This document shows positions 25,579 through 61,547 of a DNA stretch of 64,000 bases, piece after piece (within the stretch, counting starts at the first letter, position 1; each line of letters begins with the position of its first letter). Source of the stretch: a virus. The notes beneath the pieces are model-generated. The model saw nothing but the letters and a program-made list of their open reading frames with translations, was not told where the DNA came from and made no database searches. Location: positions 41,670 to 105,669 of IMG/VR virus record IMGVR_UViG_3300044620_000592; one strand, written 5' to 3'. Both the position numbers and the translations under genes were made by a program.

Positions 25579-27202
25579 TATTTTCTCCTTCAAATACCTT
25601 AACGGTATCTACATTATCGCCAGAATCTTGATTCTGACCTCTTTCTGCTTGGTCTCCTGAGCCTTGAACACCAGGGGGTGTTGAACCTGCATCAGACCTA
25701 GATTTTGGCGGAAGTGAGGCAGCGTTGTTAGAATTACCTATCGGTGCGCCAGCAGCTTCCTTTTTAACATTTGTTGGGTATGGAAGAACATCATCTCCAC
25801 TCTTGCGCTCTGGCAATCCAACCTTGCCTCTAACCTCGTTAGGTGACATAACCTCTGTTCTGAGATATCTGTCGTAGATTCTTGACTCCATCTCTTCATC
25901 CATAAGGTCAATCTTCTTAAGTTTAAATTGAAGTAAATCAGTAAATTCAGCAACAATTCTATTAATCTTCTTTTCAATTACCGCTTGGTCTGGACCAATA
26001 ACCTGCATCTTAAATGTCTTATCAGCATCTCTTGAAACAGCCAAGTTTGCGTTATCGTAGACACCGACTTTTGGAGCAGGAACTCTGTTTGCAACAAGTA
26101 TTTCATCACGGTTTGATTTGCGGTATTTGTCAAATGAAGCATCCTGAATACCGGCCTCAAGTTTTTCAAACTTAATATCAGTATCTGAACCTACAGATGC
26201 AGGGATTGGAATAATCAATGTTCCATGATTTCGACCCTTAACTTCATTTCTAAAATAGTTAACAAGCTCTTGTTTTGAGCGTTGACTAATCTTTGCACCT
26301 TTTAGAATGATTGCATAACGAGGAATTGCCTTGTTTTCAAAGTAGTCAATATTGTATTCTTTTGCAAACTTATCTCCAACAATCGCAGCAGCAGCTGACA
26401 CTGCCGATGGAATCCCGTAATATGTGTGATTTGGAGAATACATTTTAAAGTGAATAATCTCGTTAGGATTTGGATCCATGTTGATTGGGTCTTCAGTTTC
26501 TGTATCTTGGAAGTTTCTAAAATACACTGCCTGAATCTTATTGCTTCTAGAAATCTGAACATAGCCATCACGATTTCTTCTAACGCGAACCATTGTGCCG
26601 GGTATATGACCTATATAACCAATCTTTCCAGCGTTATTGCGACCAATTTCTAAATAGCCATTGCCAATGGTAAGAACATCTTGCCAAACGCGAACCATAG
26701 TTTCAATAAGGGTTTCTTCAATGTTAAGATTTTCAAATATCTCATCAAGATCTTCTTTTAAATCCTGCATTTGTCTTCTTGTTCTATCGAGTTTTGCTCT
26801 GTCGTCTTGGACTCTTTCAATTTTTCTTTTTGCTTTTAATGTTTCATTAAACTCAAAACCAAGACCAACAGTGTTCATAACTCTTGCGTTAATTGCAGCA
26901 TAGTGAATTGAACTTTGATCATATAGATGAGCAAGATTGTCTAAATCATATGGAGGATTAATAATATCCCAAAGAGAATATCCATTAACAACTAATGGAT
27001 CAACATATTTAGTCTGTGTGCCATCTGTGCCCTCATATTTTTTCTGAAGGCGTGATGCTTTTCTCTTCATTCTTGGAGAAAGAGAATCAATCTTTACATT
27101 TAAGAAGGGGTCTGTAATTTTCTTCTCAACCTCAAAAGAGCTATAAGAAATATCATCAAGCTCCTGTGATTCTTCTTCTTGTACGACTTCCCATTTTTGC
27201 AT
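25571..27202 (-). CDS. Portal protein
   Basis: A 543-residue protein with portal character: an N-terminal region with MKRKASRLQKKYEGT, the central stem/wing segment (LETMVRVWQDVLTIGNGYLEIGRN, followed by GKIGYIGHIPGTMVRV), and a membrane-like helical barrel region ending in AVSRDADKTFKMQVIGPDQ. The sequence PAPKVGVYDNANLAVSRDAD is typical of portals. The C-terminus is disordered (SLPPKSRSDAGSTPPGVQG). It forms the DNA channel and packaging dock. Confidence 0.88.
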   Translation of the reverse strand: MQKWEVVQEEESQELDDISYSSFEVEKKITDPFLNVKIDSLSPRMKRKASRLQKKYEGTDGTQTKYVDPLVVNGYSLWDIINPPYDLDNLAHLYDQSSIHYAAINARVMNTVGLGFEFNETLKAKRKIERVQDDRAKLDRTRRQMQDLKEDLDEIFENLNIEETLIETMVRVWQDVLTIGNGYLEIGRNNAGKIGYIGHIPGTMVRVRRNRDGYVQISRSNKIQAVYFRNFQDTETEDPINMDPNPNEIIHFKMYSPNHTYYGIPSAVSAAAAIVGDKFAKEYNIDYFENKAIPRYAIILKGAKISQRSKQELVNYFRNEVKGRNHGTLIIPIPASVGSDTDIKFEKLEAGIQDASFDKYRKSNRDEILVANRVPAPKVGVYDNANLAVSRDADKTFKMQVIGPDQAVIEKKINRIVAEFTDLLQFKLKKIDLMDEEMESRIYDRYLRTEVMSPNEVRGKVGLPERKSGDDVLPYPTNVKKEAAGAPIGNSNNAASLPPKSRSDAGSTPPGVQGSGDQAERGQNQDSGDNVDTVKVFEGENNE

Positions 27203-36153: not shown

Positions 36154-37389
36154 ATGGCTATTAATGTAAATGATATGGAACTACCTTATGTTCCGGCAAA
36201 GATTATTAAATCAGATTTAGATGCATACGATCAATTTCTTATTGGAATTGATGCGCGTGAAAAAAGTTGGATTGCAACAACTAATCTTTCATATATAATT
36301 TTAGATCATGATCATTCTTTTAAAATGTCAAGAGATACAAGATGGCATAATGGCTTATCACTTTTAAGTGATTTAAATCCTCATTTTGATGAAAAAACAA
36401 AAGAAGGTCGAAGAAAAATAATTATAAATCTTGAAGGTAATGACCATCTGAGATTGAAGAGAATTATTGGACCAGTCTTTTCTCCTAAAAATGCAGACTC
36501 ATTAAGGCCAGATATGGAAAAAGCCATTAATGAGATTATTGATGCCGTTATTGAAAGTGGTGAATGTGATTTACAAAAGGATATATTTAATAAATATCCG
36601 TCATATATTATTACAAAAATACTTGGTATTCCAAATTCTGATTGGGAAGAGTTTAGTAGATGGGCTGATATTACATTTAGTACATTTGCAGGCAACTATG
36701 ACCAAGATCCAGAAGAAGTTCGCAATACGCAAAAGAAACTTGATAAGTACACTCAAAATTTAGTATATGAAAAAAGAAACAATCTTGGAAATGACCTTGT
36801 GTCGATGTTAATCACTGCAGAATCCGATGGGGAAAAATTAACCGATTCTGAGATTGTGCATTTAATTCAAGCGGTTTTAATGGGTGGACTTGATACGACA
36901 AAGCATCAGTTAGGTCTTATTTCAATAATGTTAGCAGACCAGCCAGAACTAATTGATATGTTATCTAAAGATATAAATGTTCAAGAAATTATTGAAGAGT
37001 CAATTCGGTTAGATGGTGTATTTAAATATGTGATAAGAGTTGCATCTGAAGATATTGAATATAATGGCGTTTTGTTCCCTAAGGGTACAATTATCTCTCC
37101 AGCATTAATGGTTGGTAATTACGATGAGTCGACATTTAATGATGCTGGAAGCTTTATGGTAGATAGACCAAACAGGAAGGGCGCAACTCTTTCATTCGGA
37201 GCTGGAATTCATTATTGCCTAGGTGCATCTATAGCAAGAGCTCAGATACAAGAAGCTATGAGGGCTATTGCAAAAAGAATGCCGGACTATCAGATCAATG
37301 GGGATGTTGTGTATAAGAAAGCATATGAAGCAGTATGGGGAGCCAGATCCCTCCCTGTTAAATTTACTCCAGGGAATAAAAATGCCTGA
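36154..37389 (+). CDS. Cytochrome P450
   Basis: A 411-residue protein with the full set of P450 signatures. The oxygen-binding I helix reads GGLDTT (244-249), the K-helix ExxR is E282-S-I-R285, and the heme-binding loop is FGAGIHYCLG with the cysteine ligand C355. Length is normal for soluble bacterial P450s, which take electrons from ferredoxin. No membrane anchor. It oxidises an unknown small molecule. Rare in phages. Precedes the next three genes with overlapping ends. Confidence 0.95.
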   Translation: MAINVNDMELPYVPAKIIKSDLDAYDQFLIGIDAREKSWIATTNLSYIILDHDHSFKMSRDTRWHNGLSLLSDLNPHFDEKTKEGRRKIIINLEGNDHLRLKRIIGPVFSPKNADSLRPDMEKAINEIIDAVIESGECDLQKDIFNKYPSYIITKILGIPNSDWEEFSRWADITFSTFAGNYDQDPEEVRNTQKKLDKYTQNLVYEKRNNLGNDLVSMLITAESDGEKLTDSEIVHLIQAVLMGGLDTTKHQLGLISIMLADQPELIDMLSKDINVQEIIEESIRLDGVFKYVIRVASEDIEYNGVLFPKGTIISPALMVGNYDESTFNDAGSFMVDRPNRKGATLSFGAGIHYCLGASIARAQIQEAMRAIAKRMPDYQINGDVVYKKAYEAVWGARSLPVKFTPGNKNA

Positions 37390-40756: not shown

Positions 40757-40924
40757 TGTAACTTTAGACAGGGCGTGTAATTTTAGTACAAAAATCTTTA
40801 TGCCCGTGTAATATTACAGCTGATACCTTTATGGAAACTGTGTAACATTACACACTGTGTAACTCTAGGTATCCGTGTAATATTAGCTCCAGGAAGTTTA
40901 TGAAAAAGATCCGTGTAATCTTAG
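40757..40924 (+). repeat. Box cluster 1
   Basis: Near-perfect TGTAAYATTACA at 40807 and 40841. Variant TGTAANNTTAG-type boxes at 40757, 40776 and later near 40857, 40875 and 40914. The octamer CTTTATGG appears near 40838, with CTTTATGC a little upstream. Lies between the first array gene and the 71-aa gene. Confidence 0.8.
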
Positions 40925-40932
40925 AAATAGTG

Positions 40933-40961
40933 TTGTATTCCTCTTAGTAATCCTGTAAGGT
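40933..40961 (+). promoter_or_regulatory. Promoter of 71-aa gene
   Basis: TTGTAT (40933-40938), 17 bp, TAAGGT (40956-40961). The gene ATG follows six bases after the -10-like element, so the mRNA could be leaderless; TAAGGT could also serve as a ribosome site. Confidence 0.5.
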
Positions 40962-40967
40962 AACACT

Positions 40968-41183
40968 ATGAATAATTTCACGATAAGCATTAAAGAGACC
41001 GCCAAGACGATGGAGTTCACCATCACATTCGAGGAGCCTTATCGCACAGACGATAAGTTTGCCGCGAATGGTGCGCGTGTTCGTATTTGGGACTTCATTC
41101 AGAGGAACCGTATCCAGTACAGCCGACACACTAAGACCAAGCGTGTTGATGACTACTCATTCACAATGGGTATTTGGAAGTAG
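40968..41183 (+). CDS. Small array protein, 71 aa
   Basis: MNNFTISIKETAKTMEFTITFEEPYRTDDKF opens a beta-rich basic protein with IRIWDFIQRNRIQYSRHTKTKRVDDYSF. The repetitive beta pattern suggests a small nucleic-acid or protein binding fold. Monocistronic: its own promoter and terminator. Confidence 0.65.
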   Translation: MNNFTISIKETAKTMEFTITFEEPYRTDDKFAANGARVRIWDFIQRNRIQYSRHTKTKRVDDYSFTMGIWK

Positions 41184-41198
41184 GGGGATACACACAGG

Positions 41199-41226
41199 GA
41201 GGGGGCCGCTTGGCCCCCTTCTTTTT
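41199..41226 (+). terminator. Terminator after 71-aa gene
   Basis: GGGGGCC-gctt-GGCCCCC (41201-41218) followed by TTCTTTTTG. Confidence 0.8.
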
Positions 41227-41239
41227 GTCTCCAGCTTCG

Positions 41240-41600
41240 TGTAACATTACAACCCTGTGTAACATTACAGAACTACCTAGTAGTGCAGGTAGGTGTAACA
41301 TTACAAAACTCTCAAATTGTAGTATGCGCTACAAATCGTGTGTGTAACATTACACAAGGTACCTTTATGGGATTGCTCACGCGGGTGGAGCTCCCCAGTT
41401 TCACGTAGGAGACGCACCCGCGAGAGAATAAGGTAGTTTCTACCATAATTGAGTATGAAATTGTAATCGGGCTTGTAATATTACAAGTCTTTCCGTTATT
41501 CAATTCCCTACTACATTCGCTAGGTAAAGTCAAGTCATTATGGGCATTTTCCCAGCTGGATTTTTTCTAGATTATTTTCCCTAAATGCGTAACTTTACAC
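41240..41600 (+). repeat. Box cluster 2
   Basis: Boxes at 41240, 41258, 41294, 41343 and 41474 are near-perfect TGTAAYATTACA; CGTAACTTTACA lies at 41588. CTTTATGG near 41363. A separate CGCGGGTG/CACCCGCG hairpin lies near 41380-41420, beside a half-parS-like TTTCACGT. Gene-free stretch of ~440 bp. Confidence 0.8.
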
Positions 41601-41664
41601 AGTTTGTCGGGTAGTATTTTCTTGTTGGCAATTCCGCCAACTTGTCCCGAAAGGTAGTGCCGAA

Positions 41665-42075
41665 ATGTCTAAGCGTCATCAAGCACAATGGAAGAAGCGC
41701 AAGGCTTCTTATCTCAAGCAAATAGCCGAAGCCAATAAGGTGAACGCTAGTCGGGGAGTAAAGCAATTTTACTTTTCCGATGACCTAATCAACCTCATCG
41801 TTGATGCCGATTTTGCGCCAGTTATGCCAGTTGATATGTTGGGTCGTTCATTCGTTCAGGGTGAGGCTAGGCGTTCATTCTGTATTGAAATTGACGCTAT
41901 GCCAGTTGAGGTTGAGAACGCTACCCGAAAGGCTACGACCGACCGACCCGAAAATGCAGTTCGGGCTAATCTGTTGAGTTTCATGAAACTCATCGGAAAG
42001 AATGAGTATTACGCCATTCGGGGAGAGTCGTACCGTGAGGGTGAGATTCCGCCAGTTTGGGTTGTTCGGGTCTAG
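41665..42075 (+). CDS. Array protein, DRPEN-type family, second copy
   Basis: 136 residues with a basic N-terminus (MSKRHQAQWKKRKASYLKQIA). The C-terminal TDRPENAVRANLLSFMKLIG, YYAIRGESYREGEIPPVWVV matches the GC-rich copy at 40.1 kb, but GC content is clearly lower. Start ATG 41665 follows AAAGG by about ten bases. Terminator follows. Probably DNA-binding. Confidence 0.65.
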   Translation: MSKRHQAQWKKRKASYLKQIAEANKVNASRGVKQFYFSDDLINLIVDADFAPVMPVDMLGRSFVQGEARRSFCIEIDAMPVEVENATRKATTDRPENAVRANLLSFMKLIGKNEYYAIRGESYREGEIPPVWVVRV

Positions 42076-42092
42076 TCCCCGAACACTTACGG

Positions 42093-42117
42093 AAGCCCCC
42101 CGAAAGGGGGGCTTTTT
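42093..42117 (+). terminator. Terminator after 136-aa gene
   Basis: AAGCCCCCC-gaaa-GGGGGGCTT (42093-42114) followed by TTT. Confidence 0.85.
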
Positions 42118-42143
42118 CGTTTCCCCAAAAAAGGCCGGTACCT

Positions 42144-42251
42144 TGTAAAGTTACACCCAGTGTAATATTACAAAAAGAACCTTTATGTGGAGTGTGTAAT
42201 TTTACGAGAAATAACTTTATGGAAGGCTAAAACTTTTTTCGTGTAATATTT
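42144..42251 (+). repeat. Box cluster 3
   Basis: TGTAAAGTTACA at 42144, TGTAATATTACA at 42161, TGTAATTTTACG at 42195, and TGTAATATTTG near 42242 directly upstream of the promoter. CTTTATGTGG and CTTTATGG also present. Confidence 0.8.
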
Positions 42252-42260
42252 GGGAAATGC

Positions 42261-42288
42261 TTGCAATTGCTTTTCCAGCTGGTAGTAT
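42261..42288 (+). promoter_or_regulatory. Promoter of 96-aa gene
   Basis: TTGCAA, 16 bp, TAGTAT. Leader of about 33 nt before ATG 42328 with a GAGAAAG purine-rich site. Confidence 0.5.
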
Positions 42289-42327
42289 TTCTAATACAAG
42301 GCAATAGCCCATAGAGAAAGATAAGAA

Positions 42328-42618
42328 ATGAAAGTTCAAGAATTACAGACACCAAATCTTGTAGAGTTGGTAATGCCATATGAGATGTATAGATTTCTTC
42401 TTTACTGCATGGCTACCTATGAAAATCCAAAAGACACCGACATGAAGCAGGTCTACAAGAATTGCTGGGAGTTTGCAGAGTCTCTCGGTGCAGAGTCACC
42501 CCATCACTTCATTTCAGAGAATGATGGTTTCATGAAACTTTACCACCACCAGCTGGTAGTGCTTAGAGGACAGGCAGAAGCACAAGCCGAAAAGGTTGCA
42601 AAGGTAATCAAAAAGTAG
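42328..42618 (+). CDS. Small array protein, 96 aa
   Basis: Mostly helical acidic protein (MKVQELQTPNLVELVMPYEMYRFLLYCMATYENP...). Contains SPHHFISENDGF and a Gln/Lys-rich end (GQAEAQAEKVAKVIKK). No family recognised. Single-gene unit. Confidence 0.6.
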   Translation: MKVQELQTPNLVELVMPYEMYRFLLYCMATYENPKDTDMKQVYKNCWEFAESLGAESPHHFISENDGFMKLYHHQLVVLRGQAEAQAEKVAKVIKK

Positions 42619-42625
42619 TAGGGAA

Positions 42626-42647
42626 GGTAGAGAGGAAACTCTCTACC
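42626..42647 (+). terminator. Hairpin after 96-aa gene
   Basis: GGTAGAGAG-gaaa-CTCTCTACC, perfect 9 bp. Lacks a U-tail, so it may stabilise or terminate weakly. Confidence 0.6.
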
Positions 42648-42659
42648 GGCCTGCAATTG

Positions 42660-42907
42660 TGTAATATTACAAACCTGTGTAATATTACATGCCGTTGCTT
42701 TATGGCGGGCAGGTGTAATGCCTTGTTTTATCAAACATTACACCTGCTGTAACATTACACGAAGCTGGATGAAATAGAGTGTGTAATTTAAGACTGTGTA
42801 ACTTTATGGGATCGTGTAACATTAGCCAATTGCATTATGGAACTAATCCAAAAAATATTTCCTGGAATATTAGAAATTGACTTGCATAGCTTGTGTAATA
42901 TTTGTAT
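42660..42907 (+). repeat. Box cluster 4
   Basis: Boxes at 42660, 42678 and 42748; variants at 42782, 42796, 42815 and 42894. Includes the GCAGGTGTAATG/CATTACACCTGC hairpin (42709-42747) ending next to the 42748 box. The 42748 box begins a ~46-bp direct-repeat unit (CGAAGCTGGATGAAATAGAG follows). CTTTATGG at ~42698 and ~42804. Confidence 0.8.
42709..42747 (+). repeat. Array hairpin A
   Basis: Perfect 12-bp arms GCAGGTGTAATG/CATTACACCTGC with 15-base loop; abuts a TGTAACATTACA box. Confidence 0.75.
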
Positions 42908-42917
42908 CCTTACAGGT

Positions 42918-43163
42918 ATGAGTTACACACAACTTTCACGCCCATACCGCCTAGAGTTCAAGCCCCGTATGCAGACAATTTTTGCTCGCATGATTGTCTG
43001 TAACAATTGCCGACCTGCTGGCGAGAAATTGCTGGCTGGTCATATGTTCTTCGGCGCTCTCAGCGTCAAGCACCTTGACCGCTTCGCAGATGTCAAGTGC
43101 GACTTCTGCGAGAACGAAATCTGCAAGGAGCCTGCTCCCTGCAAGTGCCACCGCTGCAAATAG
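42918..43163 (+). CDS. Cysteine-rich zinc-binding array protein
   Basis: 81 residues from ATG 42918, preceded by CAGG; upstream in-frame 42837 would add 27 residues through a box. CNNC, CDFC, a further Cys and CKCHRC suggest two zinc sites. Single-gene unit, likely nucleic-acid or protein binding. Confidence 0.6.
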   Translation: MSYTQLSRPYRLEFKPRMQTIFARMIVCNNCRPAGEKLLAGHMFFGALSVKHLDRFADVKCDFCENEICKEPAPCKCHRCK

Positions 43164-43173
43164 CGGGGCTAAA

Positions 43174-43203
43174 GTTACAGGGAGTGCCCTCCCTCCCTGT
43201 AAC
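43174..43203 (+). terminator. Terminator with box arms
   Basis: GTTACAGGGAG (43174-43184) pairs with CTCCCTGTAAC (43193-43203), 11 bp. The arms carry TTACA/TGTAA sequences like the boxes. Confidence 0.7.
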
Positions 43204-43216
43204 ACTTCCAGGGCCA

Positions 43217-43350
43217 TGTAATGTTACACACCAGTTGTAATATTACGCGAAGCTGGATAGATTTGAGTGTGTAAGTTTACACACCGGGTAAGGTCTGATC
43301 GTGTAACATTAGCCCCCGGGCTTTATGGAAATTTTTTCTGTAACATTAGA
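43217..43350 (+). repeat. Box cluster 5
   Basis: TGTAATGTTACA at 43217, TGTAATATTACG at 43236 (start of direct repeat unit CGAAGCTGGATAGATTTGAG), TGTAAGTTTACA at 43270, TGTAACATTAG at 43302 and 43339. CTTTATGG near 43321. Confidence 0.8.
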
Positions 43351-43357
43351 AATAGAG

Positions 43358-43386
43358 TTGTTCTTTGTGTTTGGTTCTGTTAGGAT
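43358..43386 (+). promoter_or_regulatory. Promoter of 113-aa gene
   Basis: TTGTTC, 17 bp, TAGGAT; ATG six bases later, so possibly leaderless, or TAGGAT contributes a ribosome site. Confidence 0.5.
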
Positions 43387-43392
43387 TTCCTC

Positions 43393-43734
43393 ATGACCTA
43401 CTCACCTAAGCCCTATCAGACCACTTCTGCGCTTCAAGCCGACCACAAGTATTTCCGTACTTTGGTCATGCTTGGAGACATTACTATCTCATCAGAAGGC
43501 ATCATAGATATGACCGTCAATGATGCACCTACTAGCATCTACTCTTTCCTTCATAATGAGGTAGAAGAAAAGTTGTTCAATGTCTATGACACTTACTGCC
43601 TTGGCGGTTATGAAGATGAGACACTCGCAATGATTCAGCGCAAAGAATTAAAGATGTCAATGGTTGAGTTTTACACTCGCCAAATCCGTTACGCAATGGA
43701 TGAGATTTATGACGAACTAGTGAAGAGGGGGTAG
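43393..43734 (+). CDS. Small array protein, 113 aa
   Basis: MTYSPKPYQTTSALQADHKYFRTLVMLGDIT opens a protein with beta and helical parts, including FLHNEVEEKLFNVYDTYCLGGYEDETLAMIQRKELKMS. No known family. Single-gene unit between clusters 5 and 6. Confidence 0.6.
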   Translation: MTYSPKPYQTTSALQADHKYFRTLVMLGDITISSEGIIDMTVNDAPTSIYSFLHNEVEEKLFNVYDTYCLGGYEDETLAMIQRKELKMSMVEFYTRQIRYAMDEIYDELVKRG

Positions 43735-43748
43735 AATTACACGGAGAG

Positions 43749-43780
43749 TCCCCTAGTATTACACTAGGGGATTTCTCCCC
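43749..43780 (+). terminator. Terminator after 113-aa gene
   Basis: TCCCCTAGT-attac-ACTAGGGGA (43749-43771), then TTTCTCCCC. Confidence 0.75.
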
Positions 43781-43788
43781 CGGCTTTG

Positions 43789-43962
43789 TGTAACATTACA
43801 TACCTAATCTTACAGGCGGGCGTAAGTCGCTTCACCACAGCTATTACGCCCGCAGTAATATTACACGGAGCTGGATGGATTTGAGTGTGTAAGTTAAGAT
43901 CGTGTAACTTTATGTAGTTGTATTATGCAATCTATTAAAAAATATCTTTGTGTAATATTTGG
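43789..43962 (+). repeat. Box cluster 6
   Basis: TGTAACATTACA at 43789; AGTAATATTACA at 43854 (opens the direct repeat CGGAGCTGGATGGATTTGAG); variants at 43888, 43903 and 43951. Hairpin GCGGGCGTAA/TTACGCCCGC (43816-43853). A TTTATG element follows the 43903 variant. Confidence 0.8.
43816..43853 (+). repeat. Array hairpin B
   Basis: GCGGGCGTAA and TTACGCCCGC, perfect 10-bp arms, next to the box at 43854. Confidence 0.7.
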
Positions 43963-43980
43963 AAATGCTTGACGGAGCTA

Positions 43981-44220
43981 ATGTTACACATTACAGTGGT
44001 ACACATGAAGTCAGCGATAGCAACCGAAAAGTTACACAAAATCTGCACCGACAGCACCAACTGCCAGTGCCCTATTATTACAGAGGACAAGGCTTGTTCT
44101 ATTGTTACACTCATTAACGAGTTTGTAACTGAAACAAATCCCGTAGCAATTACCTTTGACAAGGCAGAAGATTACGACAAGTTCCTCGCTTATATTACAC
44201 TAGCAAGTTTGAGGGGGTGA
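43981..44220 (+). CDS. Small array protein, 79 aa
   Basis: Start ATG 43981 after GGAG (MLHITVVHMKSAIATEKLHKIC). Internal boxes overlap its start (TGTTACACATTACA). CTDSTNCQCPIIT gives three Cys near 35-41. No family recognised. An ATG at 44005 is less likely because it has no ribosome site. Confidence 0.5.
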   Translation: MLHITVVHMKSAIATEKLHKICTDSTNCQCPIITEDKACSIVTLINEFVTETNPVAITFDKAEDYDKFLAYITLASLRG

Positions 44221-44228
44221 AAAATTAC

Positions 44229-44372
44229 ATGAGTACAGATGAAATCGTTTTGTTCTTTTCCGTCTTTGGATTCCTTTGCGGATATGGCACTTGCGCCTTT
44301 GGAAATGCATTGGCTAAAGCTACACCGGTCAAAAATTACAGACCTTACGACTGGGCGATAGACGGGGAGTAA
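44229..44372 (+). CDS. 47-residue array membrane protein
   Basis: MSTDEIVLFFSVFGFLCGYG continues into CAFGNALAKATPV; a single membrane-like segment with a polar acidic C-terminus. Starts eight bases after the preceding stop, probably the second gene of one unit. Terminator follows. Confidence 0.55.
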   Translation: MSTDEIVLFFSVFGFLCGYGTCAFGNALAKATPVKNYRPYDWAIDGE

Positions 44373-44394
44373 AATTACAGATCTCCCAAAAGTT

Positions 44395-44432
44395 ACACGG
44401 TTCCTAATGTTACAGGGGCCGTGTTTCTTTTT
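44395..44432 (+). terminator. Terminator after 47-aa gene
   Basis: ACACGG (44395-44400) pairs with CCGTGT (44419-44424), with an inner TCC/GGG extension, then TTCTTTTTG. Confidence 0.7.
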
Positions 44433-44442
44433 GTCCCGGAAC

Positions 44443-44517
44443 TGTAATATTACGCACCTTGTAATATTACATAGATGTCCGGAAAATGCAGTAGATAATT
44501 GTTTGCTGTAATATTAG
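44443..44517 (+). repeat. Box cluster 7
   Basis: TGTAATATTACG at 44443, TGTAATATTACA at 44460, TGTAATATTAGGAAATGG at 44507 abutting the promoter. Confidence 0.8.
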
Positions 44518-44524
44518 GAAATGG

Positions 44525-44553
44525 TTGTTTTGGCCTTGGCTATTTGGTAGTGT
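44525..44553 (+). promoter_or_regulatory. Promoter of 41-aa gene
   Basis: TTGTTT, 17 bp, TAGTGT. An ATG seven bases later (44561) precedes the strong AAAGGAGGT ribosome site used for ATG 44579. Confidence 0.5.
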
Positions 44554-44578
44554 TTCATTTATGAAAGGAGGTAGTCAT

Positions 44579-44704
44579 ATGAAGCTTGCAGTGCTTTACC
44601 CGAACGGGTACAAGTCTCCAATTTCGGAGGAGCAGGTCGCGAAGCACGGGCTGCGAGTAGGAATGCTCACACCGTTCACGCGCTTGCCAATCGTGGAACT
44701 CTAG
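44579..44704 (+). CDS. 41-residue array protein
   Basis: MKLAVLYPNGYKSPISEEQVAKHG continues into LRVGMLTPFTRLPIVEL. The AAAGGAGGT ribosome site is ideal for ATG 44579; a leaderless start at 44561 would add six residues. Base composition is richer in GC than its neighbours. Function unknown. Confidence 0.6.
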   Translation: MKLAVLYPNGYKSPISEEQVAKHGLRVGMLTPFTRLPIVEL

Positions 44705-44721
44705 AGTTACACGGTGAGAAC

Positions 44722-44750
44722 GGGGAGGGTCGAATGACCCTCCCCTATTC
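44722..44750 (+). terminator. Terminator after 41-aa gene
   Basis: GGGGAGGGTC-gaat-GACCCTCCCC, perfect 10 bp, followed by TATTCTT. Confidence 0.75.
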
Positions 44751-44763
44751 TTACAGAGCACTG

Positions 44764-44972
44764 TGTAACATTACAAGGGCGGGCGTAAGGTTCACACTCT
44801 TGTAACCTTACGCCCGCGTGTAAGATTACACCATGCGAGTAGATTTTAGTATGTGATTGTAATATTACATAGCCTGGCTTTATGGCGTGTAATTTTAGAA
44901 CTGATCGTGTAACTTTAGGTAAGCTATGTAACATTAGATAAAACTCTGTAACTTTACCTGTAACAATAGGAA
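44764..44972 (+). repeat. Box cluster 8
   Basis: TGTAACATTACA at 44764, TGTAAGATTACA at 44819, TGTAATATTACA at 44858, TTAG/TTAC variants at 44888, 44908, 44927, 44947 and 44959. Hairpin GCGGGCGTAAGGTT/AACCTTACGCCCGC (44779-44817). CTTTATGG near 44878. Confidence 0.8.
44779..44817 (+). repeat. Array hairpin C
   Basis: 14-bp perfect arms GCGGGCGTAAGGTT/AACCTTACGCCCGC, next to a TGTAAGATTACA box. Confidence 0.75.
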
Positions 44973-45073
44973 ATAGCCTATCTGTTCACTTACTGTTCAC
45001 CTAGATTCCACCTTCTGTTTACCTTGGGCTGTTATCTTGGTAAATGTCAAGGGGAAGCACCTCCGAGACACCA

Positions 45074-45093
45074 AATGTTTCACGTGAAACATT
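45074..45093. other. Canonical parS-like centromere site
   Basis: AATGTTTCACGTGAAACATT is a 20-bp perfect palindrome whose core TGTTTCACGTGAAACA (45076-45091) equals the chromosomal ParB-binding parS consensus of Bacillus and Actinobacteria. It sits 24 bases before the start of the 98-aa gene. Exact agreement across 16 bp is very unlikely by chance in a 64-kb window. It would be bound by host ParB. No parA/parB is visible here. Confidence 0.85.
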
Positions 45094-45116
45094 GGTCAAG
45101 CCGAAAGGTAGTCATA

Positions 45117-45413
45117 ATGGAATTCGAGTTTATCGATGAGAACGAAATCGAGGCAGTACGCCGAGGTCGTAAGTCAAATGTCTCAGCCGAACTGGTTGAA
45201 GCATTCCGCACAATGCCCAAGGGCAAGGCAGTCAAGGTCAAGGGTCTCAGCGTAGACCCGAAGTCGGAAGACTTCAAGAATGACAAGGCTACCGCCTCCG
45301 CTACCATCCGTACCGCAGGTCGCTTGGCAGGCGTGAAGGTCTCCATCTCATGGAGCCCCGAAGGTATCCCTCAGGTGACCACCAAGGTCGCCAAGGCTGC
45401 AAAAGTCAAGTAG
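45117..45413 (+). CDS. Array protein, FEFI(D/N)E family, GC-rich copy
   Basis: 98 residues from ATG 45117, just after AAAGG and parS (an upstream in-frame start at 45024 would read through parS). N-terminal EFEFIDENEIEAVRRGRKSN with an AT-hook-like RGRK, then TASATIRTAGRLAGVKVSIS. Paralogous to genes at 46.0 and 46.8 kb. Basic and likely DNA-binding. Confidence 0.65.
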   Translation: MEFEFIDENEIEAVRRGRKSNVSAELVEAFRTMPKGKAVKVKGLSVDPKSEDFKNDKATASATIRTAGRLAGVKVSISWSPEGIPQVTTKVAKAAKVK

Positions 45414-45422
45414 CCCAAGTTC

Positions 45423-45452
45423 GCTTGGAGGGGTCGGGACACCCCTCCAAGC
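45423..45452 (+). terminator. Hairpin after 98-aa gene
   Basis: GCTTGGAGGGGT (45423-45434) pairs with ACCCCTCCAAGC (45441-45452), 12 bp, no U-tail. Confidence 0.65.
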
Positions 45453-45546
45453 ACAGGGGCTGAAGTAGGTGCATGGTGCATGGGGAGACCCCATGACAGC
45501 GGTTAGGATGTTTCCGCCATGAAACACACTTACCTCAGTCCCCTGT
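45453..45546. ncRNA. Candidate multi-branched structured RNA or DNA cruciform
   Basis: Outer arms near 45453-45471 and 45527-45546 pair over 18 of 19 bases, with one bulge and one mismatch. CATGG (45472-45476) pairs with CCATG (45517-45521). Inside are CATGGGG-aga-CCCCATG (45479-45495) and GCGG...CCGC (45499-45502 with 45514-45517; excludes the last CATGG pair). This is a compact branching fold without an open frame. Either an RNA element or an origin-like cruciform; no known family is claimed. Confidence 0.5.
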
Positions 45547-45560
45547 CCCCCCAGGATCTG

Positions 45561-45783
45561 TGTAATATTACAGACTGTGTAATATTACGAGCGGGTGTAA
45601 TTTTACTTACCTGTGAAAATTACACCCGTGCAAATTGTGTAATATTACAGGGTATTTTTAGTGTGCGTTTGTAATATTACAGTACCCCTGGAGCTACGCT
45701 CGATCGTGTAACTTTAGAAGCTGTGTAACATTAGCCGTGTAACTTTATGCGCGTGTAATACTAGACCGATCGTGTAACATTAG
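45561..45783 (+). repeat. Box cluster 9
   Basis: TGTAATATTACA at 45561, 45648 and 45670; TGTAATATTACG at 45578; variants at 45707, 45724, 45738, 45754 and 45773. Hairpin CGGGTGTAATTTT/AAAATTACACCCG (45592-45628). TTTTAGTGTGCGTTTG near 45657 is another recurring element. Confidence 0.8.
45592..45628 (+). repeat. Array hairpin D
   Basis: CGGGTGTAATTTT/AAAATTACACCCG, perfect 13-bp arms, between two box pairs. Confidence 0.7.
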
Positions 45784-45871
45784 AAGCTTGCACACTACAA
45801 CCAACTTTTTTAATTATTTGGGTTGTTGGTGAGGAAATGCGAAATATGGCGATATCGTTCTACTTGTCAGA

Positions 45872-45900
45872 TTGACACTCGGTTAGGTTCGGGGTTAGGC
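45872..45900 (+). promoter_or_regulatory. Possible promoter upstream of 98-aa gene at 46.0 kb
   Basis: TTGACA (45872-45877), 17 bp, TTAGGC. Leader is about 120 nt and includes GGGGC-gcaa-GCCCC. Weak -10 agreement. The 45.8-46.03 kb stretch holds little else. Confidence 0.4.
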
Positions 45901-46027
45901 GGGGCGCAAGCCCCTAGCAATTTCCCCCCCTAATGGTTCTGATAGACATGAGTGATGGATAGTAAGTAACACTATCGTTCCGAAAGTTACACTCGTACAA
46001 TTTATTACACGAAAGGCAGTAACCATT

Positions 46028-46324
46028 ATGGACTTTGAGTTCATTGACGAAAACGAGATTGAGAGCGTTAAGCGTGGTCGCAAGTCCAACGCTAGCCCCG
46101 AACTCGTAAAGGCACTATCAGAGGTTCCAGCAGGCAAGGTTGTAAAAATTACAGCAATGTCAGTTGACCCAGCCTCTGAGGACTTTAAGAACGACAAGGC
46201 AACAATGTCGGCAAGCATTCGCACGGCTGGCAAGTTGGCAGGCGTAAAGGTTTCCATTTCATGGAGTCCAGCAGGCGTTCCACAAGTCAAAGTGTCTAAG
46301 CCTAAGGCTAAGGCTGGCAAGTAA
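46028..46324 (+). CDS. Array protein, FEFI(D/N)E family, second copy
   Basis: 98 residues (MDFEFIDENEIESVKRGRKSNAS), almost collinear with the 45.1-kb protein: KNDKATMSASIRTAGKLAG and SISWSPAGVPQV. Lower GC than its paralogue. AAAGGCAG before the ATG. Carries the RGRK motif and ends Lys-rich (SKPKAKAGK). Confidence 0.7.
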   Translation: MDFEFIDENEIESVKRGRKSNASPELVKALSEVPAGKVVKITAMSVDPASEDFKNDKATMSASIRTAGKLAGVKVSISWSPAGVPQVKVSKPKAKAGK

Positions 46325-46352
46325 TCGCTGGGTCTAATTGACCTACCGATAG

Positions 46353-46389
46353 GAACAACCCCCGTGAGTGTTCTTCACGGGGGTTGTTC
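46353..46389 (+). terminator. Strong terminator after 98-aa gene
   Basis: GAACAACCCCCGTGA (46353-46367) pairs with TCACGGGGGTTGTTC (46375-46389), perfect 15 bp. Followed by T and mixed bases, no long U tract. Confidence 0.75.
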
Positions 46390-46422
46390 TGCGTACCCAT
46401 GAAAGTCCGGCCGGAGGAAGAT

Positions 46423-46717
46423 CTATTATTACACGACACCTAATATTACAGAGGTTCTATTATTACACCGGATCTAAAATTACAGAGCTCCAGGAATCCA
46501 GCTTGTGTAATATTACAGCCAGCACCTTTATGTAATATTACATAGCTCGATGGGTGTAAGTTGATATCCCCCGTCAACTTACACCCATGTAATATTACAG
46601 AGAATTCTATTAGATTATAATATATATTATGAATTAGATTAAGCTTTATCTAATCTATAACTTTATGTAACCTTTATGTGTAACATTACACGCATCTTTA
46701 TGTGGTGTAATGTTACA
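46423..46717. repeat. Box cluster 10, partly inverted
   Basis: Four asymmetric boxes are in reverse orientation (CTANNATTACA at 46423, 46440, 46458, 46474). Then TGTAATATTACA at 46506, 46531 and 46588; TGTAACATTACA at 46679; TGTAATGTTACA at 46706. Hairpin ATGGGTGTAAGTTGA/TCAACTTACACCCAT (46550-46588). Followed by an AT-rich repeat region. Confidence 0.8.
46550..46588 (+). repeat. Array hairpin E
   Basis: Perfect 15-bp arms ATGGGTGTAAGTTGA/TCAACTTACACCCAT, abutting the box at 46588. Confidence 0.75.
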
Positions 46718-46733
46718 ACCTGGTACAATAAAA

Positions 46734-46759
46734 AAACGGATCAGTTTCCTGACCCGTTT
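46734..46759 (-). terminator. Terminator of minus-strand array gene
   Basis: On the minus strand AAACGGGTCAG-gaaa-CTGATCCGTTT is followed by TTTT. One mismatch in the stem. Confidence 0.75.
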
Positions 46760-46796
46760 CTTTAACTTTTGGAATGAGTATTGTTTTATTTAATTC

Positions 46797-47150
46797 TTAA
46801 GCGATTTTCTTAAGAAATGGGACATTATTTACATCCCAAATAATGCCAACTTTTGCCCAACCTGAAGCTTTTGCCTGAGAGCGAAGAATTGCTGAATTCT
46901 TTGCTTTGGCATTTTTCTTCTCTTCAAGTGTAACAATTTCGTTATCCAATGCGAACATTGGAACACGAACAGTTTGCCCAACTTTTGCTTTACTCAAAAA
47001 AGCAACCAATTCAGGAACAACATGAGCCTTACGCCCACGCTTTACTGATTCAATTTCTTCTTCATTAATGAACTCAAATTGCATGTTCATTTCCTTCTCA
47101 TTTTCTTCTGGATTTTCTTCAGGATTTCCTGAAGTATTTTTTGAAGCCAT
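46797..47150 (-). CDS. Array protein, FEFI(D/N)E family, AT-rich minus copy
   Basis: 117 residues. After a polar Asn/Glu/Pro extension (residues 1-~22) it has MQFEFINEEEIESVKRGRKAHV, collinear with the two plus-strand paralogues, then NSAILRSQAKASGWAKVGIIWD. A start at MNMQFEF would remove the extension. It is the only minus-strand gene of the array region and is AT-rich. A TTGTTG-17-TAAGGT promoter lies upstream on the minus strand. Probably DNA-binding. Confidence 0.7.
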   Translation of the reverse strand: MASKNTSGNPEENPEENEKEMNMQFEFINEEEIESVKRGRKAHVVPELVAFLSKAKVGQTVRVPMFALDNEIVTLEEKKNAKAKNSAILRSQAKASGWAKVGIIWDVNNVPFLKKIA

Positions 47151-47200
47151 TTTCTTACTCTTTCTTTTATTTAATTAACTCATTCCTTGAGTCAATGTCC

Positions 47201-47229
47201 ACCTTACCGCCTAAACGTAGCAACAACAA
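47201..47229 (-). promoter_or_regulatory. Promoter of minus-strand array gene
   Basis: On the minus strand TTGTTG (47229-47224), 17 bp, TAAGGT (47206-47201). Confidence 0.5.
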
Positions 47230-47321
47230 CCTATCCAAAAAATTAACAATTAAAAACTTAATTACCGAGCTTATTCTTCATCCATTTTCCGATCTGTTGT
47301 TTTAGCAGCTAGCGGGGGTTG

Positions 47322-47380
47322 TGTAATATTACGTTAGTGTAATATTACAAAATACTCAAATTATAGTGTGTAATATTACG
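47322..47380 (+). repeat. Box cluster 11
   Basis: TGTAATATTACG at 47322 and 47369, TGTAATATTACA at 47338. CTTTATGG follows near 47389 and 47450. An ATCTAAT-rich inverted repeat AAAAGATTA/TAATCTTTT (47403-47434) sits nearby. Confidence 0.8.
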
Positions 47381-47494
47381 TTGATCACCTTTATGGAGAT
47401 CTAAAAGATTATCTAATTTATTATCTAATCTTTTATTGCCTGGTACCTTTATGGGAGCTCATTTAATTCCCCTAAAGAAACATTATTCCTAAGG

Positions 47495-47523
47495 TTGGTA
47501 ATCTAATTATCAGACGGTAGGAT
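47495..47523 (+). promoter_or_regulatory. Promoter of 153-aa gene
   Basis: TTGGTA (47495-47500), 17 bp, TAGGAT (47518-47523). Leader ~60 nt, so here TAGGAT is clearly not a ribosome site. Supports TARGRT as a real -10 class. Confidence 0.55.
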
Positions 47524-47585
47524 ATTTATAGGCTGACATTTAGCCGAAAAACCAAATCTATTTCCTAACGTGAAAGATAATCCAA

Positions 47586-48047
47586 ATGACCACCGAACCA
47601 ATTGACGAAATGTTTATTGCAATCCATAGTCTTACATTATGTATTGAAGTAGAAATTACTACAACAGAACATTTCCTTAAAACTGAAATTGAATATTCAA
47701 AAATTAATGGATATCAAACACAGATCAATTTCCTAACCCGATTTAGCGAGATATTCGATAAAGTTATCTCTAAGCCTTTCTATGAGAAAGTCTTTATTCC
47801 AAATATGGAAGAAAAAATGGATGCCGATACAATGGATTTCCTTTTTAGCTATAGCTATCTTAAGAATTTCTTTAAGGAATTCCATAAGGCTAACATTCTT
47901 CTAACAAAACACTTTAAGGATGCCTATACCCTAAGCGAAGTCAATAACGATATTCGTAACGCTTATCCAGGTATTGGTCATAATCCCGAACTCTTCCCTC
48001 ATCAGGAACTAATTCAATATCTAGGTTCAATGGGTAAAGGGAAGTAA
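47586..48047 (+). CDS. Unknown helical array protein, 153 aa
   Basis: Acidic, helical (EIEYSKINGYQTQINFLTRFSEIFDKVI, MDADTMDFLFSYSYLKNFFKEFHKA). AT-rich. Followed five bases after its stop by a second helical gene; both contain LFP followed by a charged helix (ELFPHQELIQYL and HLFPNRESFFKEI). May be distant paralogues or partners. No family known. Confidence 0.6.
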   Translation: MTTEPIDEMFIAIHSLTLCIEVEITTTEHFLKTEIEYSKINGYQTQINFLTRFSEIFDKVISKPFYEKVFIPNMEEKMDADTMDFLFSYSYLKNFFKEFHKANILLTKHFKDAYTLSEVNNDIRNAYPGIGHNPELFPHQELIQYLGSMGKGK

Positions 48048-48052
48048 AAACA

Positions 48053-48538
48053 ATGTCAAACTTTGAAACAATATTCAATAATCCAGAAAAAGCAATGGCT
48101 ATCATTTTTCATATGACTAATAGCCATGAAATAGCTGCTCAAACCATTACCGATATTCATAAAGGTATTCTTAAGGCAACTGAAATTGTTAACCAAACTT
48201 CTAACTTTCTCGAAAAGTTAAATTTTATGAAGATTCCTCAGACAATGATTGATAATCTTGAAAAGGCTAATAATGCACGTGATTCTTTTGCTAATATCCT
48301 AGAGAATCTAAAAGCTGAAAGGATAGATTATGATAAATACATCATGGAAATCTATTCCTTAACTCTTGAGCTTTGCATAATTGGTCAACAAATTACTGCT
48401 GTTTTTGGTAATACTGATGAATTCGGAATTGACCATTTATTTCCTAATCGTGAATCTTTCTTCAAAGAGATATACGATCTATTTACCGAGCTTTCATTTC
48501 AGTCAAAAGACGTAGTTCAAGAATACGCTAGTCTTTAG
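48053..48538 (+). CDS. Unknown helical array protein, 161 aa
   Basis: Long helices (AAQTITDIHKGILKATEIVNQTSNFLEKLNF, NARDSFANILENLKAERIDYDKY) with an FGNTDEFGIDHLFPNRES segment. Paired with the preceding gene in one unit under the 47.5-kb promoter and closed by a strong terminator. Function unknown. Confidence 0.6.
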   Translation: MSNFETIFNNPEKAMAIIFHMTNSHEIAAQTITDIHKGILKATEIVNQTSNFLEKLNFMKIPQTMIDNLEKANNARDSFANILENLKAERIDYDKYIMEIYSLTLELCIIGQQITAVFGNTDEFGIDHLFPNRESFFKEIYDLFTELSFQSKDVVQEYASL

Positions 48539-48552
48539 CCAATTCTTTAGAG

Positions 48553-48582
48553 AAAGGGGCAGGTTTTCCTGCCCCTTTTTTC
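48553..48582 (+). terminator. Terminator at end of array
   Basis: AAAGGGGCAGG-tttt-CCTGCCCCTTT followed by TTT. Confidence 0.9.
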
Positions 48583-48597
48583 ATGCCTGCAATCATG

Positions 48598-48740
48598 TGT
48601 AACATTACACCAATTGTAATATTACAGGAACCCTGCTGGAATAGAGTGTGTAATATTACACCGCTATTCTTTATGGAAATCAAATCCAAATACTAATGTT
48701 TATCCAAATCCTAACATCCGGCCAACTTTATGGCGGGCAA
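48598..48740 (+). repeat. Box cluster 12 (last)
   Basis: TGTAACATTACA at 48598, TGTAATATTACA at 48615 and 48649; GCTGGAATAGAG (part of the direct repeat) between them. CTTTATGG at ~48670 and ~48730. This cluster lies after the last plus gene and terminator. Confidence 0.8.
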
Positions 48741-61270: not shown

Positions 61271-61547
61271 TTACTTTTACCGTTGTAATAGATACGTCTC
61301 TAGCAGTAACTGTTTGAGTTCGCAAAAGTTTAATTCTTTCCTTTGGGGTGAGTCCTCCCCAAACCCCAAAGGCTTCATCATTCTTTAGTGCATACTCAAG
61401 GCATTCACTTTTAACTGTGCAAATATTGCAGAATGCTTTTACATCATTCGCTTGCTTTACAGCACCCTTTGTGCCAGGTTCAGGGTAAAACAATTCTGTA
61501 TCTTGTCCTAAACATGCAGCATTTAAACGCCAATTTTCATTACTCAT
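61251..61547 (-). CDS. WhiB-family Fe-S regulator
   Basis: 98 residues. C12, C40, C43 and C49 bind a [4Fe-4S] cluster (FCNICTVKSEC), followed by GVWGG (61-65) and the basic LTPKERIKLLR. These are the WhiB signatures. WhiB proteins are exclusive to Actinobacteria and their phages and bind sigma factor or DNA, so this supports an actinobacterial host. Confidence 0.95.
   Translation of the reverse strand: MSNENWRLNAACLGQDTELFYPEPGTKGAVKQANDVKAFCNICTVKSECLEYALKNDEAFGVWGGLTPKERIKLLRTQTVTARDVSITTVKVNDNNKV

Follow-up and report, generated by a model that had tools for sequence, protein, structure and literature searches.

The site described here lies in a window of 64,000 nucleotides, bases 41,670–105,669 of a 105,669-base IMG/VR record. 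Positions 45074–45093 of the window (no strand assigned) form the 20-bp perfect palindrome AATGTTTCACGTGAAACATT, the longest in the whole record, and its core at 45076–45091 (likewise unstranded), TGTTTCACGTGAAACA, is identical to the host-type parS consensus at all 16 bases. An earlier note had called this a perfect chromosomal-type parS, which is what we find. It is the sole site within two mismatches in the whole 105,669-base record, and no second site within three mismatches is present in the 64,000-nt window. Markov models of the record (order 0–3) predict 4e-6 to 4e-5 exact copies per record, a figure that is an unfair p-value when taken alone, because the reader who first singled out the site was looking for notable ones, and the comparisons with other genomes weigh more.

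A 16-bp palindrome of the form TGTTTCACGTGAAACA or TGTTNCACGTGNAACA characterizes bacterial chromosomal-type parS, and chromosomes often have several such sites. The phage site shares all 16 bases of the ParABS–SMC consensus (TGTTTCACGTGAAACA) and is intergenic, as chromosomal sites are, and the variant carried by a relative, described below, alters positions 5 and 12 only. It differs in being single, in standing inside a gene leader and in having no ParA or ParB genes found with it: rather than being oriC-proximal on a parAB-bearing chromosome, it is located on a phage record that lacks ParB_N, HTH_ParB and ParA-type domains.

The palindrome ends 23 nt before the ATG of an RGRK gene (45117–45413, plus strand), whose 98-aa product belongs to no Pfam family. 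Two paralogues follow, one at 46028–46324 on the plus strand (69% identical, with a leader that has no parS) and one at 46797–47150 on the minus strand. The three genes share a low-coding region of about 8 kb in which parS is surrounded by an array of TGTAAYRTTACA boxes (40807–48660, no strand assigned); 26 of the 28 boxes in the record fall between 40.9 and 49.5 kb. The location given in the earlier note, within a box array and adjoining an RGRK-type gene, is therefore accurate. We also considered whether parS is itself a variant box, which was ruled out, as the box sequence is unrelated. The box arrays are possibly read by RGRK proteins. These proteins yield a moderate structural model (pLDDT 79) with no significant PDB match, and none was found in cultured phages or, by pattern search, in bacterial genomes. 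A box array is also present in L217.

Within the RGRK leader, parS lies between a possible -10 element, TATCTT (45033–45038, plus strand), and a ribosome-binding-site-like sequence, GAAAGG (45103–45108, plus strand), which also occurs in the leader of the divergent relative G038. The -10 element is weak and was not called by a promoter scan; it is common to the leaders of the relatives L126 and L127. The leader, parS included, is probably transcribed. Folding of several RGRK leaders predicts two stem-loops, of which the first in the window (SL1, 45046–45069, plus strand) is of the GUCAAGGGGAAGCACCUCCGAGAC type, recurs in relatives and is not in Rfam, while the second (SL2, 45070–45096, plus strand) contains parS. 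The earlier note does not mention that the palindrome occupies the second of two stem-loops in a structured mRNA leader. Searched against Rfam, the leader gives weak chance matches only, none of them over parS. The two-stem-loop leader is a possible autoregulatory RNA. The arrangement seen at 45046–45096 of the window also precedes RGRK genes in L126–L131, L134 and L234–L236, with SL1 often closed by an AAxAxC-like hexaloop. An upstream extension of the RGRK frame to a TTG at 45024, which would make parS coding, was discarded, since L126 does not conserve it and the ribosome-binding-like site precedes the ATG at 45117.

The record is a viral contig with portal, head maturation protease and capsid genes. 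It has no end repeats and, at 105.7 kb, is shorter than its cultured relatives (127–138 kb), which leaves room for up to a quarter of the genome to be absent. DNA similarity searches gave no match to known phages. The capsid protein shares about 50% identity with its counterparts in Stanwilliamsviridae phages of Streptomyces (such as TunaTartare, NootNoot and Jay2Jay), with which the record also has a WhiB gene in common; unlike it, the tested records of that family carry neither the RGRK family nor a parS within two mismatches. Two WhiB genes are present, one at 61329–61532 of the window (minus strand) and one at 26861–27040 of the record, outside the window. WhiB was also matched in all 13 other records tested and, among control genomes, in Corynebacterium glutamicum only. 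On the strength of the WhiB genes and the capsid protein, the phage host is placed, at the level of phylum, among the actinobacteria. The earlier note had made its reading depend on a host of matching ParB/parS type, and Actinobacteria is a phylum whose chromosomes use this parS: Mycobacterium smegmatis has GTTTCACGTGAAAC, from which the consensus of Streptomyces coelicolor hardly differs (PMC7022226). The window also encodes a complete cytochrome P450-like gene (36154–37389, plus strand; 411 aa; PF00067, E 1.9e-26; best PDB match, E 1.1e-46), with the heme-Cys motif FGAGIHYCLG. It had 0 matches in 50,697 phage records and none in genomes by peptide patterns, and its use as a guide to host identity was dropped for want of a match.

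Profile searches found neither ParB domains (ParB_N, PF02195; HTH_ParB, PF17762) nor ParA-type AAA_31 (PF13614) in the 105,669-base record, which may be incomplete; with the same reservation, the claim that no parA or parB is to be seen in the window extends to the whole record, and the phage-encoded parA and parB of a self-contained ParABS system are missing from it. A tyrosine integrase (PF00589) is likewise absent from the record, which gives no ground for placing it among temperate integrating phages. With no tyrosine integrase or par gene found, the plasmid-like prophage suggested in the earlier note is not supported, and stays one among a number of things that captured ParB might be used for. 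One could still suppose that the site is part of a full phage-encoded par system, that of a plasmid-like prophage, with a parA and parB that fall outside the recovered part of the genome or have diverged beyond recognition. The record is linear and short for its kind, and some actinophages are extrachromosomal prophages with parABS (PMC7157519). Those prophages, and cyanophage Mic1 with its ParABS (PMC7156551), resemble our phage in bearing a partition site, but they have their own ParA and ParB along with their own sites, which our phage lacks as far as the record goes. The domains missing here are missing elsewhere too: PF17762, PF13614 and PF00589 from G038, G001, G002 and G004, and PF17762 from five cultured relatives with complete genomes. 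We therefore regard a complete par system as very unlikely.

What stands at the parS position in related phages bears on the function of the palindrome. Eleven RGRK leaders, that of the window included, have a hairpin at this place, and ten of the eleven hairpins end 18–24 nt before the start codon. Those of the relatives other than G038 are short and unrelated in sequence, and by eye their differing stems keep pairing (ACCGC/GCGGU, CACCC/GGGUG, CACUC/GAGUG, GCGGA/UCCGC); a hairpin in a fixed place with compensating stem changes marks the RGRK leader as structured. The hairpins of the relatives thus give the palindrome a second possible role, as RNA, and this is the main rival to a role as parS. 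The palindrome would then be a mere hairpin (SL2) controlling translation or stability of the RGRK mRNA, and the parS match a coincidence inherited by two phages. The predicted presence of SL1 and SL2 in several leaders agrees with this. However, neither a self-complementary loop (ACGU) nor these particular bases are needed for a hairpin, and the stems of the other leaders are mostly 4–6 bp, with unrelated loops. Seven fixed half-site bases would be matched by chance in a given leader with a probability of about 6e-5, and two leaders match; for two independent matches among some 11 leaders we estimate a chance on the order of 1e-7, which rises to about 1e-3 if both trace to a single event. A hairpin alone would also leave the over-representation of parS in viral contigs unexplained. 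We consider it unlikely that the palindrome is an RNA hairpin and nothing more.

The second of the two leaders belongs to G038, a divergent relative (90.9 kb; capsid protein 87% identical, RGRK protein 43% identical), in which AGTGTTCCACGTGGAACACT, at the homologous position and 19 nt upstream of the RGRK start, contains the parS variant TGTTCCACGTGGAACA. Its half-sites differ from those of the window at two of 10 positions, both changes being compensated on the opposite side, and the sole change in the core falls at parS positions 5/12. Each phage consequently has a 20-bp perfect dyad, with the core TGTTYCACGTGRAACA. The same position-5/12 variant occurs elsewhere, in L097, in tandem with a consensus parS before terL. 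The array of G038 is of the same kind as that of the window, with a different box, CTAACGTTAG in place of TGTAATATTACA. The boxes have changed, while change in the parS core is confined to positions at which parS allows it, which fits a phage protein reading the boxes and a conserved host protein reading parS.

Conservation in related phages, which the earlier note had set as the test that could refute it, gives a mixed answer. In favor is the site of G038. Against it, among relatives with an orthologous gene and leader the two nearest, L126 and L127 (RGRK 70–71% identical), have another hairpin and no parS. No parS within two mismatches was found in ten cultured Stanwilliamsviridae and Rhodococcus phages; G038 was the only one to have such a site among about 80 capsid-related contigs, mostly fragments that need not span the region, and among about 100 related records, again mostly fragments. 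A search by pattern for parS ahead of an RGRK start gave five matches, with a true RGRK gene only in G038. Of the first interpretation, the site itself, its location and the lack of detectable par genes stand, the host phylum agrees with it, conservation is divided, and the plasmid-like prophage is not supported.

Beyond these relatives, at least 120 IMG/VR contigs contain an exact parS, whereas scrambling its bases into two control palindromes gave counts of 11 and 3. Among the matches listed, 77 of 146 parS sites fall between genes, a location shared by 12.6% of positions chosen at random within these contigs; the first control palindrome is also intergenic at its 11 sites. Of 50 parS contigs tested for ParB_N, mostly the longer ones, 46 had no match and four had one, three of these over the cut-off. 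Some parS contigs may be misclassified pieces of chromosomes or plasmids, but the size of the excess, and the presence of phage genes next to many sites, speak against this being true of them all. As parS is far commoner in viral DNA than chance would allow, some phages probably recruit host ParB. About half of the intergenic sites among the matches listed are no more than about 55 nt from a predicted start, a position that would also suit an operator. Our palindrome, perfectly symmetric over 20 bp and placed between promoter and start codon, might accordingly bind another dimeric repressor of the RGRK gene, encoded by phage or host. Against this, no such repressor was identified, every base of the core agrees with the parS consensus, from which G038 departs only at the two parS positions named above, so that an operator of this sort seems improbable to us.

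The reading we prefer is that the palindrome is a functional orphan parS in the RGRK leader of an actinobacteriophage, a loading site for the chromosomal ParB of the host. The exactness of the site, its position, the variant at the homologous spot in G038 and the viral over-representation, mostly in contigs without ParB domains, make this probable, if by no means certain, on sequence evidence. Weighing against it are the other hairpin in L126 and L127, the occurrence of parS in only two of about 11 distinct leaders with this stem-loop, the presence of a single site, and the possible incompleteness of the record, which could conceal a ParB of the phage's own.

At parS, ParB dimers are loaded and close into CTP clamps, which slide onto adjacent DNA and act together with ParA and SMC (PMC7022226, PMC12704722). 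By analogy with chromosomal parS, host ParB–CTP clamps would load at the leader parS after infection and slide over the neighboring box array. With artificial lambda-parS phages, labelled ParB gathers into foci on the infecting genomes (PMC13190303), which indicates that ParB can reach a parS on phage DNA entering the cell. If ParB is recruited, the most likely benefit would be positioning or shared inheritance of phage DNA through the host ParA/SMC machinery, to which we give an even chance. Local control of the RGRK gene comes next, as a tentative possibility; ParB near parS is also able to repress genes. Titration of ParB we rank lowest and think rather unlikely, since one site per genome makes a weak decoy until the phage replicates.

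A precedent exists in SGI1, whose parS mimics are bound by the ParB of its helper IncC plasmid, stabilizing SGI1 (PMC10954446). In both cases a mobile element has only the DNA site, and the ParB to be used belongs to another replicon. For SGI1 the donor is a plasmid, and binding and stabilization have been demonstrated, whereas for our phage the chromosome is a candidate donor, proposed from sequence. Like SGI1, the phage has no ParB of its own in the record and a site that matches a host replicon, the match being to the actinobacterial consensus (PMC7022226). While parS mimics that use another replicon's ParB are known from SGI1, an orphan host-type parS on a phage appears to be new: we found no description of one in the literature searched, a search whose scope left out most subscription journals and preprints.

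The surprise is less this single site than the pattern of viral parS sites around it. ParB reads nearly the same 16 bases in most bacteria, and thus a phage could borrow the machinery of segregation, nucleoid organization and polar anchoring at the cost of a 16-bp site and no protein. The excess in viral contigs suggests that such borrowing arose repeatedly. We propose, with slightly less than even confidence, that many phages of unrelated lineages and without partition genes have orphan host-type parS at defined regulatory places, recruiting host ParB and thereby SMC or ParA; if true, this would be a general and so far undescribed viral route to hijack the bacterial centromere. The defined places would be the RGRK leader here and the terL leader in pelagiphage-like contigs. 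Exact parS stands directly before terL in five pelagiphage-related contigs (L029, L083, L093, L097, L120), a set that was picked for holding parS and so cannot show retention. The cultured pelagiphages HTVC027P and HTVC023P have no parS before terL, although HTVC027P has a site with one mismatch elsewhere.

Other arrangements were seen among the viral contigs. Clusters of three to five exact parS are found in L010, L017, L044, L053 and L063 and may be parts of partition loci; ParB_N was not matched in L010, L044 or L063. In L040, L055 and L084, parS lies 45 nt upstream of the start of large uncharacterised genes that resemble one another.
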